40,681 nt of DNA, from positions 1-40,681 of IMG/VR virus record IMGVR_UViG_3300034104_000271, one strand, 5' to 3'. This document shows positions 1 through 40,548 of the stretch, piece after piece; positions within the stretch are counted from its first letter, which is position 1; each line of letters begins with the position of its first letter. This DNA comes from a virus. The notes under the pieces were generated by a model. The model was not told the origin of the DNA and searched no databases. It saw only the letters and a list, made by a program, of their open reading frames with translations. Made by a program: the position numbers and the translations under genes.

Positions 1-57
1 GTAGTGCTAACAACGTAACGACTACCACCGCTGCTTCGTTTATCCCAGAAGTTTGGT
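1..57 (+). CDS. Major capsid protein, exon 1 (3' part; second copy of 40492-40548)
   Basis: These bases continue the capsid reading frame that begins at 40467 and encode its residues from Gly9 to Trp27, ending FIPEVW plus one base of the next codon. The exon ends at T57, which forms the U·G pair of intron helix P1. Joining T57 to base 653 gives a TCA serine codon and the junction EVW-S-DEVIAAYKKN. Without splicing, the frame runs two codons into the intron and stops at 63-65. Confidence 0.85.
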
Positions 58-190
58 TGTCGTGATGGCCAAATAAAAACCGTTTCTGAATAACTGGGAA
101 GGGCGTAGAAAACCCTAATCAGAGGGAACACGAAATACCAAAGTCGCAATTCACTACAGGAGGTAGTATGAAGCGAGTAAGTTGGAAGTA
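1..190. repeat. Terminal direct repeat (circular-assembly overlap), left copy
   Basis: Bases 1-190 repeat as 40492-40681, an offset of 40491, with one difference: G at 64 against A at 40555. The repeat contains coding exon, intron start and the endonuclease start rather than packaging-type sequence, and it stops exactly at the window end. It is therefore best read as the overlap of a circular contig, not a physical terminal repeat. A true redundancy or permuted genome cannot be excluded from sequence alone. Confidence 0.85.
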
Positions 191-652
191 TTTAGCAGGA
201 TTGATTGACGGCGAAGGTTGTATTGACCTCGCCACGACAAAAGTAAACGAACAGTTCTACATTCAGCCGCGTATGCGTATAGGCATGGCGAATGTTGCAC
301 AGTTTTTACTGGTACAGTGTCAAGCCAACTTCGGCGGGCATCTGGAACATCGTGAAAGCAAGAACGATAAGTGGCAAAACTCCACTTCTTGGACATTATC
401 TGGCTACAAAGCAGCTTGTCCCGTTCTTCGCAATGTTGTTAATCATCTTATCTTGAAGAAAGAACAAGCTCGGTTTTGTCTTTGGATGGAGACAAACTTG
501 AAGGGTACACGGCTTCAGCAAGAAGTGCTGGATGCTGTACGAGAAGAGCTTAAGCTAATGAAGCGTGACCCGCACAGACTAAGTGAAACGGCTCAAGAGC
601 ATATTCTAATGCTTTTGGGAAGCTATAGTCGAAAGGATTGAAAAATCCTTAG
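58..652 (+). ncRNA. Group I self-splicing intron in the major capsid gene
   Basis: Helices visible by eye: P1 pairs exon UUUGGU (52-57) with GCCAAA (68-73), with the required U57·G68 wobble at the splice site. P3 is CCGUUUC (80-86) with GAAACGG (585-591). P7 is GACUA (577-581) with UAGUC (626-630). P8 is 595-602 with 609-616. P9 is a 7-bp stem (633-639/644-650) closed by a GAAA tetraloop. The intron ends in G652. AGCUAUAGUC at 621-630 fits the conserved S element. Sequence between 87 and 165 probably holds P4-P6; I could draw only a short stem there (100-103/113-116). Exon joining restores a continuous capsid frame. Subgroup is not assigned. Confidence 0.93.
168..641 (+). CDS. LAGLIDADG homing endonuclease encoded in the capsid intron
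   Basis: A 157-aa protein with one clear LAGLIDADG motif (LAGLIDGEG, residues 9-17). The acidic residue at motif position 8, here Glu16, would bind the metal ion. A single motif implies it acts as a homodimer. Family knowledge: such enzymes cut intron-less alleles near the insertion site so that repair copies the intron. It has a perfect AGGAGG ribosome site (158-163) four bases before ATG. Its 3' coding sequence doubles as intron core: P7, P3 and P8 lie inside it, and its TGA stop spans the P9 tetraloop. It could also have a splicing (maturase) role, which sequence cannot decide. Confidence 0.92.
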   Translation: MKRVSWKYLAGLIDGEGCIDLATTKVNEQFYIQPRMRIGMANVAQFLLVQCQANFGGHLEHRESKNDKWQNSTSWTLSGYKAACPVLRNVVNHLILKKEQARFCLWMETNLKGTRLQQEVLDAVREELKLMKRDPHRLSETAQEHILMLLGSYSRKD

Positions 653-1530
653 CAGACGAAGTTATCGCTGCCTACAAGAAGAATCTTGTGATGGCAAATC
701 TGGTTCGCAAGATGAACCACAAGGGCAAGAAGGGTGACACGATCAACATCCCGATGCCCAGCCGTGCTGTGGCTCAGGCTAAGGGCGCTAACGCTACCGT
801 CAAGATTCAGCAAGACACTGAGTCTAACGTGCAGGTTCTCATCAACAAGCACTTCGAAGTGTCGCGTCTGATCGAAGACATCGTGTCGGTGCAGGCTCTG
901 TCCTCGCTGCGTCGGTTCTACACTGATGACGCTGGCTACGCTCTGGCTCGTCAAGTGGACACGGATCTGATCCAGTTGGGTCGCTCTGCCAACAACGGTG
1001 CTGGCACCAACGTGTACGCTACCGCCTTTGCTGGTGGCAACGGTACGACCGCTTATGTGGCTGCTTCTAATAACGAATCCGCTCTGACCGATGCCGGTAT
1101 CCGTCGTATGATTCAGCGTCTGGACGACAACGATCTGCCGATGGAAGACCGCTTCCTGATCGTTCCTCCGTCTGCTCGCAACACGCTGATGGGCATTGCT
1201 CGTTACACTGAGCAGGCTTTCGTTGGTGAAGGCGGTGCTGCTAACACGATCCGCAATGGTCGTATTGGTAACGTGTACGGCGTGGAAGTCTACGTGACTC
1301 CTAACTGCGACACGACCTCTGGCTCTGGCGCTGCTCGTATCGCTCTGTTGTTCCAGAAGGAAGCTCTGGTGCTGGCTGAGCAAATGGGTGTGCGTTCGCA
1401 GACTCAGTACAAGCAAGAGTACCTGGGTGACCTGCTGACGGTTGACACGCTGTACGGTGTGCAGATTGTCCGTAAGGGCGATGACGCCGATGTGCCCACG
1501 GGTGCGTTCGCTATCGCTGTTCCGGCCTAA
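653..1530 (+). CDS. Major capsid protein, exon 2
   Basis: Encodes residues 28-319 of the capsid protein after splicing (exon 1 at 40467-40548). The exon begins with the last two bases of a split serine codon, then DEVIAAYKKNLVMANLV. Total length of 319 aa fits podoviral major capsid proteins, probably of HK97 fold (inference). The gene follows the scaffolding protein directly. Codon choice is strongly biased toward CTG, CGT, GGT and GCT, as expected for the most abundant phage protein. An ATG at 688 or 691 could allow internal initiation, but no good ribosome site precedes it, and it would remove the conserved N-terminus. A terminator-like hairpin follows the stop. Confidence 0.92.
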
Positions 1531-4339: not shown

Positions 4340-5554
4340 ATGGCACTCGTCACTAAAAACTTCAGCGACATCATCACCTTCACCCGTGCGTCCACGGCCA
4401 CGTTCTTCAACTCGGCTGGGGTGCTGACCAGCGCAGCAACCAACGCCCCACGCCTCGACTACAACCCCAGCACGCTGGCGGCTCAGGGGCTGCTGATTGA
4501 AGAGTCCCGCACCAATTCCATCCGCAACAACACGATGGTAGGAGCGGTGGCAGGCACGCCGGGGACGTTGCCGACGAATTGGGCGACTGCAAGTCTTGGC
4601 ACGCTGACCCAGCAGGTAGTTGGCACCGGAACCAGTAATGGGATTACTTACATCGATATCCGTCTTAGTGGCACGACCAGCACAACTCAGTTTTCATTAA
4701 GGTTGGAGCCTAACGGAACCGCTGCAATTCCGGCAGTCAATGGTCAGACATGGACTGGTTCGGCGTGGTTAGCACTTGTTGGCGGAAGCACAACAAATAT
4801 CTCGCAGGTTGGTCAGAGCGGATTACTGTGGGACGCGGGGGGCGCGTTTCTTGGTGGGGGCTACGCAGGCCCACTCAGTCCATCCTCGATAACTGCAAAC
4901 CTCACAAGATTTACGGCTTCAGGCACAAACGCCATTGTCGGAACTGCTTTTATACAGCCGCAAATTTATTTCGTGTTTGCCTCTGGCGTCGCCATCGACA
5001 TCACCTTACGCATCGGCCTGCCGCAGCTAGAGCTTGGCTCGTTTGCCACCTCCGTCATCCCCACCACCACCACCGCGCTGACCCGTGCAGCCGATGTGGC
5101 TTCAGTGAATACGTTGTCGCCTTGGTATAACGCGAGTGCTGGTAGCTTTTATGTGGAAGCAACGGTGGCCCCTGGGCTGTCGGCCTTCCCTAACACCATT
5201 GCTGTTAACGATGGCACGGTTAATAACCGGATTATTTCTTACTTGTTCACAAACGGTTTTTACTCATCAATAACTACCGGCGGTGCATCTCAGGGAACAG
5301 GTGGATTAGTAACACCACCAACTGTTGGCGCGGCGTCTAAATTTGCTTTTGCTTACGCCACAAACCGCCTTCAAGGTGCTGCCAATGGCGCGGCGGGCAC
5401 AGAAGACACAACAGTCACTTTGCCGTCTGGATTGAACATTATGAGAATTGGTGCGGTTTCTGCGACCACCAATTTTTATAACTCTCACATACAGAGAATT
5501 ACTTACTATCCGCGTTCATTGTCACAAGCGGAACTCATCTCCATTACGACATGA
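4340..5554 (+). CDS. Tail fibre/adhesin paralogue with lectin-like C-terminus
   Basis: A 404-aa protein that repeats the module order of the upstream gene: FSDIITFTRASTATFF, then RLDYNPSTLAAQGLLIEESR, an IRNNTMVGAVAG stretch, an LRIGLPQLELGSFATSV segment, and a lectin-like C-terminus ending RITYYPRSLSQAELISIT. A 31-base stretch at about 5105-5135 is identical to 3887-3917 upstream, so the duplication or gene conversion is fairly recent. It starts after GGGAGGAG. Probable surface-binding fibre; host-range function is inferred. Confidence 0.8.
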   Translation: MALVTKNFSDIITFTRASTATFFNSAGVLTSAATNAPRLDYNPSTLAAQGLLIEESRTNSIRNNTMVGAVAGTPGTLPTNWATASLGTLTQQVVGTGTSNGITYIDIRLSGTTSTTQFSLRLEPNGTAAIPAVNGQTWTGSAWLALVGGSTTNISQVGQSGLLWDAGGAFLGGGYAGPLSPSSITANLTRFTASGTNAIVGTAFIQPQIYFVFASGVAIDITLRIGLPQLELGSFATSVIPTTTTALTRAADVASVNTLSPWYNASAGSFYVEATVAPGLSAFPNTIAVNDGTVNNRIISYLFTNGFYSSITTGGASQGTGGLVTPPTVGAASKFAFAYATNRLQGAANGAAGTEDTTVTLPSGLNIMRIGAVSATTNFYNSHIQRITYYPRSLSQAELISITT

Positions 5555-23387: not shown

Positions 23388-23472
23388 TGGTGGGCGATGA
23401 GAGTTTCGAACTCTCAAGCATTGCTGCGCTGGGGCTTAAACCCAGTGTGTTTACCAATTTCACCAATCGCCC
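23388..23472 (-). tRNA. tRNA-Leu, anticodon UAA
   Basis: Read on the minus strand: acceptor stem GGGCGAT/ATCGCCC, a D-arm with TTGGT, anticodon stem CTGGG/CCCAG with loop TTTAAGC (anticodon TAA), a long leucine-type variable arm, a T-arm GAGAGTTCGAAACTCTC, discriminator A, and encoded CCA (23388-23390). It decodes UUA, a codon that AT-rich phage genes use and GC-rich hosts seldom use. It lies between the SSB gene and a sigma70-like promoter. Confidence 0.96.
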
Positions 23473-28830: not shown

Positions 28831-29292
28831 TTATTTCCAGATTTTGAAATTAACAACCCGACATATTTGGGCTGGGCTTTGGTTATATTTGACGATAAGT
28901 TGTTGCTGAGTCATTCCGTTTTTGTAGTCTTCTCGTATAGCGTTTACTTTTTCCCTGTCCAAGTGATTATGTCCAGGGGTTCTAATAATAACTTGCCTAC
29001 CTTTTGCAACTTTATCTCTCGCATTATCCAAAGCCGTCCCAGCAAATAAGTGCCGTGGATTAACGCATGAGGGATTGTCGCAAGTATGGCAAACAAACAA
29101 TCCTTTATCTAACGAACCTTTAAAATACTCGTAAGAGTATCTATGTGCCTTTACCATCTTCCATTTTCCATTAACTAGTCTCCTAAAATGCCCATATCCT
29201 CCCCTGTATTTAGCAGCTTGCCATTCCCAGCATCCATCGATGTCCTCAGACTTCTGCACTTTCTCTATAAACCTATCGAATTCTTTACGCAT
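28831..29292 (-). CDS. Free-standing HNH homing endonuclease
   Basis: A 153-aa protein starting at ATG 29292 after TTGGAG; an in-frame TTG at 29304 is less likely. The N-terminal [20 protein letters not shown] and the core [12 protein letters not shown]...[20 protein letters not shown] form an HNH_3-type nuclease with paired Cys zinc ligands. The C-terminal [20 protein letters not shown] is a helix-turn-helix specificity module. Such genes spread by cutting alleles lacking them. No intron is evident around it. A dedicated promoter lies upstream. Confidence 0.9.
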
Positions 29293-29319
29293 GGTAGTCT
29301 CCAACTGTTGAAAACACCT

Positions 29320-40466: not shown

Positions 40467-40548
40467 ATGGCTGTTTCCAATGGCGCTTACGGTAGTGCTA
40501 ACAACGTAACGACTACCACCGCTGCTTCGTTTATCCCAGAAGTTTGGT
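40467..40548 (+). CDS. Major capsid protein, exon 1 (complete, with start)
   Basis: ATG 40467 follows AAGGAG by seven bases. The exon encodes MAVSNGAYGSANNVTTTTAA followed by SFIPEVW and one base of the next codon, then the intron begins at 40549. Spliced to base 653 (circular map) it gives the complete 319-aa capsid protein. If unspliced, translation ends after residue 29 at a TAA (40554-40556). Confidence 0.9.

Follow-up and report, generated by a model that had tools for sequence, protein, structure and literature searches.

A group I intron family with an embedded LAGLIDADG endonuclease gene and its probable shifts between neighbouring sites in phage capsid genes

The DNA analysed here, called the window, is the whole 40,681-nucleotide virus record IMGVR_UViG_3300034104_000271 of IMG/VR. 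To judge from its sequence and those of its relatives, a mobile group I intron that would splice and home has almost certainly settled in its major capsid gene, at the conserved codons FIPEVW|S. It is also likely that a single lineage is involved, in which the insertion point changed at least three times within one capsid endonuclease target, the guide (P1, P10) being rewritten and the intron travelling entire, endonuclease included, and in which both ends of the open reading frame (ORF) are ribozyme, with RNA pairing dictating codons and amino acids of the enzyme. The sequence-only reading had proposed a 595-nt group I intron in the capsid gene, which is borne out by pairing, covariation and frame restoration in relatives; the shifts between neighbouring sites, the two-ended embedding of the ORF and the horizontal spread go beyond it.

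The final 190 bases of the record repeat its first 190 with one mismatch (position 64). Exon 1 therefore consists of 40467–40491 followed by 1–57, and the capsid gene crosses the record ends. Its parts, all on the plus strand, are as follows.

40467–40491, plus: capsid exon 1, first part; ATG at 40467, continuing at base 1 as the ends overlap
1–57, plus: capsid exon 1, remainder; ends in U57; the start codon is retained in exon 1 of relatives
58–652, plus: group I intron, 595 nt; ends in G652
653–1530, plus: capsid exon 2; PF19821, phrog_267

Unspliced, the capsid frame ends in EVWLS-stop. Translation with 58–652 removed reads FIPEVWSDEVIAAYKKN / MAVSNGAYGSANNVTTTTAASFIPEVWSDEVIAAYKKN and remains open to the stop at 1530, confirming the EVW-S-DE frame expected of the spliced exons; at the predicted ligated junction (57/653) ...GTTTGGT is joined to CAGACGAA. 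The identification of the host gene as capsid also held, exon 2 matching Phage_capsid_2 (PF19821, 42.5 bits) and the major-head family phrog_267. The two end copies of the record differ (G/A) at window positions 64 and 40554, in the P1 loop, which is either a real variant or an assembly error; L003, the locus that represents the window copy among the relatives and differs from it by one base in the first 1,500, has A.

The features that mark group I introns are present, namely the P1 U·G pair, the terminal G, and a pseudoknotted P3/P7 core with P4–P6 and P8. Among the helices previously drawn by eye, P1 (52–57/68–73, 6/6 paired, with U57·G68), P3 (80–86/585–591, 7/7), P7 (577–581/626–630, 5/5) and P9 (633–639/644–650, 7/7, GAAA loop) were all recovered, as was the intron-terminal G652. 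P8 exists but had been drawn too short, and in fact spans 592–602/609–619 (11 bp). Helices P4, P5, P6, P6a and P6b, a short P10 and a hairpin at the ribosome-binding site were absent from the earlier drawing. The elements, again all on the plus strand, are listed below.

52–57, plus: P1 5' strand UUUGGU, exon side of the 5' splice site; 6/6 paired with 68–73; exon-guide covariation
66–73, plus: internal guide sequence; 68–73 GCCAAA (P1) and 66–67 (P10)
66–67/653–654, plus: P10, just 2 bp in the window
80–86, plus: P3 5' strand CCGUUUC; partner 585–591 within the ORF
94–122, plus: P4 (94–97/119–122) and P5 (101–103/113–115); double changes in P5
124–132, plus: 5' strands of P6 (124–126/569–571) and P6a (129–132/564–567); partners within the ORF
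153–167, plus: hairpin ACUAC-AGGAG-GUAGU (arms 153–157/163–167); holds the ribosome-binding site of the endonuclease and ends at its ATG
168–641, plus: one-motif LAGLIDADG homing endonuclease ORF, 157 aa; PF00961, PDB profile and fold matches
192–196, plus: P6b 5' strand UUAGC; ORF codons 9–10; covaries with 554–558
554–558, plus: P6b 3' strand GCUAA; ORF codons 129–131
564–591, plus: P6a', P6', J6/7, P7 5' strand (577–581) and P3' (585–591), all within the ORF; low synonymous diversity
592–619, plus: P8, 11 bp; within the ORF
626–630, plus: P7 3' strand UAGUC; within the ORF
633–650, plus: P9 with GAAA loop; contains the ORF stop codon; five pairs, all with double changes

For site A, the window's site, an exon 1 ending at U58 with a 7-bp P1 was rejected, as it would leave C rather than G at the intron end. 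Searching the window with Rfam model RF00028 gave 13.8 bits (E 0.89), below the gathering score of 50, and at that threshold the intron escaped detection, both in the window and in each of 20 scanned relatives, the sole match there being to another stretch of L237. The sub-threshold alignment nonetheless places P7, P8 and P9 as in the present reading. Probably the large ORF in P6 breaks the model, and the cut-off is a detection threshold, not a defining feature of group I introns. Because the Rfam score falls below threshold, the case for the intron rests on comparison with relatives.

Relatives were gathered by endonuclease protein search (42 loci), by a shared-core pattern (49 stretches) and by profile search (80 loci). 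After removal of duplicates 64 loci remained, 56 of them with a readable 5' junction in the capsid gene, and in these 56 the capsid gene is broken by the same element, at the FIPEVWS codons or next to them. Applying a scripted junction (U before the intron, G at its end) restored the capsid frame past the junction in 53/56 loci; three gave no clean junction, namely L044 (the contig ends), L226 (none found) and L134 (tandem introns). Close endonuclease relatives with readable flanks all lie in the same capsid gene, even where the capsid protein is 20–24% identical to that of the window. An intron-less set was drawn from the 80 nearest capsid hits, these searches being biased as regards the share of capsid genes that carry the intron. 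The 79 nearest capsid genes without endonuclease are uninterrupted across the alignable part, and all 67 intron-less sequences used for the tree read F(I/V)PE(V/I/L/M)WSD, which agrees with the earlier statement that the insertion falls in a conserved capsid sequence. The comparison with intron-less genes, which the sequence-only reading had proposed, supports the intron: the relatives that read through lack the whole insert and have a continuous FIPE(V/I/L)WSD.

So far, the phages that carry this intron family in their capsid gene are known from metagenomes alone. A near-identity search of isolated phages with window positions 1–1530 gave no match. In the phage collection, protein searches with the endonuclease yielded nothing closer than distant LAGLIDADG genes (<60% identity); these belong to Gordonia, Streptomyces and Mycobacterium phages, and several lie inside methylase genes. 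A distant DNA search with the 5' part of one relative returned chance-level matches only, and among bacterial and archaeal genomes there were six weak relatives, none of which (0/6) had a capsid match.

The pairings are maintained across these relatives. RNAalifold recovered three helices of the 5' part (P1, P4, P5) and three of the 3' part (P7, P8, P9), with double changes at 6/7 P1 pairs, three P5 pairs and 5/5 P9 pairs. The P1 U·G pair is invariant (34/34 sequences). Eight P1 entries in the scripted P1/P3 count were off register by one base and, once shifted, all pair fully. Compared with shuffled controls, which correct for shared ancestry incompletely, P3 forms a mean of 6.9/7 pairs in 19 strand combinations from 55 loci (5.17 ± 0.19 shuffled), the P10 guide forms 3.98/5 pairs with exon 2 (2.87 ± 0.14), P6b, built from the two ends of the ORF, forms 4.84/5 pairs in 16 combinations (3.84 ± 0.17), and the arms of the ribosome-binding-site hairpin, with 43 different sequences, score 4.16 (2.96 ± 0.15). 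The P6b variants include UUAGC/GCUAA, AUGGC/GCCAU, AUCGC/GCGAU, AUUGC/GCAAU, UCAGC/GCUGA, AUAGC/GCUAU and others. Given the number of independent strand combinations, shared ancestry is unlikely to be the full explanation. In all, covariation is seen in P1, P3, P5, P8, P9, P10 and P6b. Both exons covary with the guide, exon 1 through P1 and exon 2 through P10.

The ORF had been assigned to the LAGLIDADG endonucleases, and this assignment stands: it matches PF00961 at 27.6 bits (cut-off 23.1) and has fold matches to I-CvuI, I-MsoI and I-CreI. Profile matches in the PDB were to I-CvuI and other LAGLIDADG enzymes; among the fold matches I-CvuI, I-MsoI and I-OnuI came first and I-CreI entries ranked lower. 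The predicted order of secondary structure is alpha-beta-beta-alpha-beta-beta-alpha (medium confidence, model pLDDT 69.9). I-CreI, I-MsoI and I-CvuI, which belong to introns of organellar rRNA genes, share the one-motif fold with the window's enzyme, at only 13–20% identity over the fold matches. The nearest PHROGs family is labelled 'HNH endonuclease', which seems to be a mislabel. Elsewhere in the window there is an HNH endonuclease ORF (28831–29304, minus strand; HNH_3, 39.3 bits) and a tRNA-Leu with anticodon TAA (23391–23472, minus strand) near a DNA polymerase ORF.

The start of the endonuclease ORF lies in the P6 region, and its later part covers P6', P7, P3' and P8 and reaches into P9; codons 9–10 pair with codons 129–131 as P6b. 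Synonymous diversity among 41 sequences is 0.52 in codons 21–128, against 0.00–0.10 in codons 132–139, and is likewise low (0.10) in codons 1–9. At either end the gene is part of the ribozyme, and there synonymous change nearly vanishes. In codons 1–9 (window 168–194) synonymous sites hardly vary, beyond what P6b needs, which might reflect a further RNA structure or a signal for translation. Because the ends of the ORF, placed in the P6 loop, are shared with the ribozyme core, its translation and the folding of the intron should, on sequence grounds, exclude each other, so that ribosomes and folding would compete. The covarying hairpin around the ribosome-binding site may throttle translation of the endonuclease and keep it low.

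The introns occupy four points within 10 nt, and at each of them P1 and P10 are rewritten to match. Relative to the site reference sequence TTT ATC CCT GAA GTT TGG TC, the sites are as follows.

Site B: after CCT (0 nt); 45 loci; guide GGGGAU
Site C: 6 nt further than B; L039; guide G(N)CCUC
Site D: 7 nt further than B; L134; guide GGAUUU
Site A, the window's site: 10 nt further than B; nine distinct loci; guide GCCAAA

In the endonuclease tree sites A, C and D are nested in B, with four changes in total. In a tree of the RNA core, from which the ORF, P1, P9 and P10 were left out, site A is a single group (support 92), and every shift takes just one change. The window's site A is derived from the commonest site, B, which lies 10 nt upstream. 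In nuclear rDNA, transfer of an endonuclease gene from one intron to another at a nearby site is known, according to a passage of PMC1299323 that cites Haugen et al. 2004, and sites A–D might in the same way be independent introns that swapped a common endonuclease gene. We regard this as improbable, because the RNA cores make up a single family, with A as one group within it and C and D arising by one change each, and because core segments are near-identical across sites. The trees argue instead that whole introns, and not the endonuclease gene alone, changed position. Apparently the conserved DNA target stays in place and the exact point of RNA splicing shifts; this might come about by ectopic repair after cleavage or by reverse splicing with an altered guide.

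As regards the rDNA introns, the likeness lies in related elements that sit a few nucleotides apart at sites set by guide-exon pairing (PMC1299323). There, the hosts are rRNA genes, and what is reported is either movement of the endonuclease gene alone or the spread of introns, through putative reverse splicing, to sites with the same guide target (PMC1299323). In the capsid introns, in contrast, core and ORF stay together and the guide is rewritten.

The history of the introns does not follow that of the capsid genes. Site-A introns are one clade by RNA core but are dispersed over the capsid tree. On that tree site A takes six changes, of which well-supported branches force at least five; it takes one on the RNA-core tree and two on that of the endonuclease protein. 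The presence of the intron requires 11 changes on the capsid tree, at least eight of them forced by well-supported branches. In nearly every comparison with the window's copy the intron is more similar than exon 2 (0.87 against 0.68 in L004). The conflict between capsid and intron trees, together with the closer similarity of the introns, shows that the intron passes from phage to phage; the same conflict and the patchy presence point to a mobile intron that spreads horizontally into intron-less alleles.

Splicing might persist in an intron whose endonuclease is dead and which is now inherited vertically. Homing cycles usually end in decay, which speaks for this possibility, and the endonuclease activity is a prediction from sequence. 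Even so it has a low probability, for the ORF is intact in loci with full context, D14, E16 and G17 of the motif LAGLIDGEG are invariant in 18 aligned sequences, and the capsid and intron trees conflict.

We favour an active mobile intron, and envisage its cycle as follows. The RNA would fold through P1–P9, the guide aligning exon 1 through P1 and exon 2 through P10, and the intron would excise itself and restore the capsid frame, as its anatomy and covariation suggest. The LAGLIDADG protein, which probably acts as a homodimer in the manner of I-CreI or I-CvuI, would cut capsid genes that lack the intron in co-infecting phages, close to the insertion point; repair of the cut would then copy the intron in. 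These last steps follow what is known of the enzyme family, and the tree conflict and patchy distribution fit the copying.

One alternative has next to no probability: that a free-standing endonuclease gene or debris broke the capsid gene, with an unspliced capsid made from the internal start GTG 688, where a 280-codon ORF begins. In its favour, L238 has a relative of the endonuclease gene that stands on its own immediately upstream of a capsid gene with an uninterrupted FLPEIWS region. Against it, the loci retain exon 1 with a start codon and an open reading frame, every intron-less relative examined conserves the N-terminal FIPEVWSDE segment, and the ribozyme core covaries either side of the ORF. 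The L238 gene is possibly a free-standing form of the endonuclease.

Further insertions were seen in the same capsid region, and the gene appears to be a hot spot for introns. In L134 (3365–4860) one capsid gene appears to hold two introns nearly back to back, at site D and, after a probable mini-exon GGT, at site A; the ORF of the second, site-A intron looks like a two-motif LAGLIDADG protein. In L221 (after 4558) and L207 (after the exon 2 start at 4475) capsid insertions follow shortly downstream, after EKF codons, with ORFs resembling two-motif LAGLIDADG proteins; L218, 99% identical to L221, is without the downstream insertion. In L237 (4641–4873) a separate RF00028 match of 52.7 bits, above the gathering score, lies just downstream.

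A LAGLIDADG enzyme in a capsid gene had been called less usual, a view now qualified by a precedent. Mycobacteriophage LittleE has a group I-type capsid intron with a LAGLIDADG-related ORF, whose splicing was established by RT-PCR and N-terminal sequencing (PMC3706429). As in the window, the intron lies in the major capsid gene, with U before it and G at its end; unlike the window, its ORF is on the opposite strand and the intron removes about 820 bp (PMC3706429). The window's endonuclease did not match LittleE in the phage collection, and no relationship to the window is reported for LittleE's capsid protein or insertion point. Group I introns with an endonuclease ORF overlapping the core are known (PMC3984707, Figure 2b) and resemble the window's in that the ORF extends into core helices. 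They differ in that, in the window, the first and last ORF codons form a covarying P6b and the overlap covers P6', P7, P3' and P8. In Phi-PA3, gp210 is an HNH nuclease encoded by an intron in an RNA polymerase gene, likewise an essential conserved phage gene, and was shown to act on a co-infecting phage (PMC11620839); activity of the window's LAGLIDADG enzyme is predicted. In the non-subscription literature covered, we found no report of this capsid intron family, of whole introns shifting among four points of a protein-coding target with rewritten guides, or of a covarying helix made from the two ends of an endonuclease frame.

Little is understood of how group I introns gain new sites, and rRNA genes have supplied most of the evidence. 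The four positions (0, 6, 7 and 10 nt) along one conserved protein-coding target, with matched guides and exons, are a natural series on which to weigh endonuclease repair, reverse splicing or recombination as the cause of the shift. The true start of such capsid proteins will escape gene callers. A capsid gene needs high expression, which places a demand on splicing, and the endonuclease is a plausible weapon against co-infecting phages.
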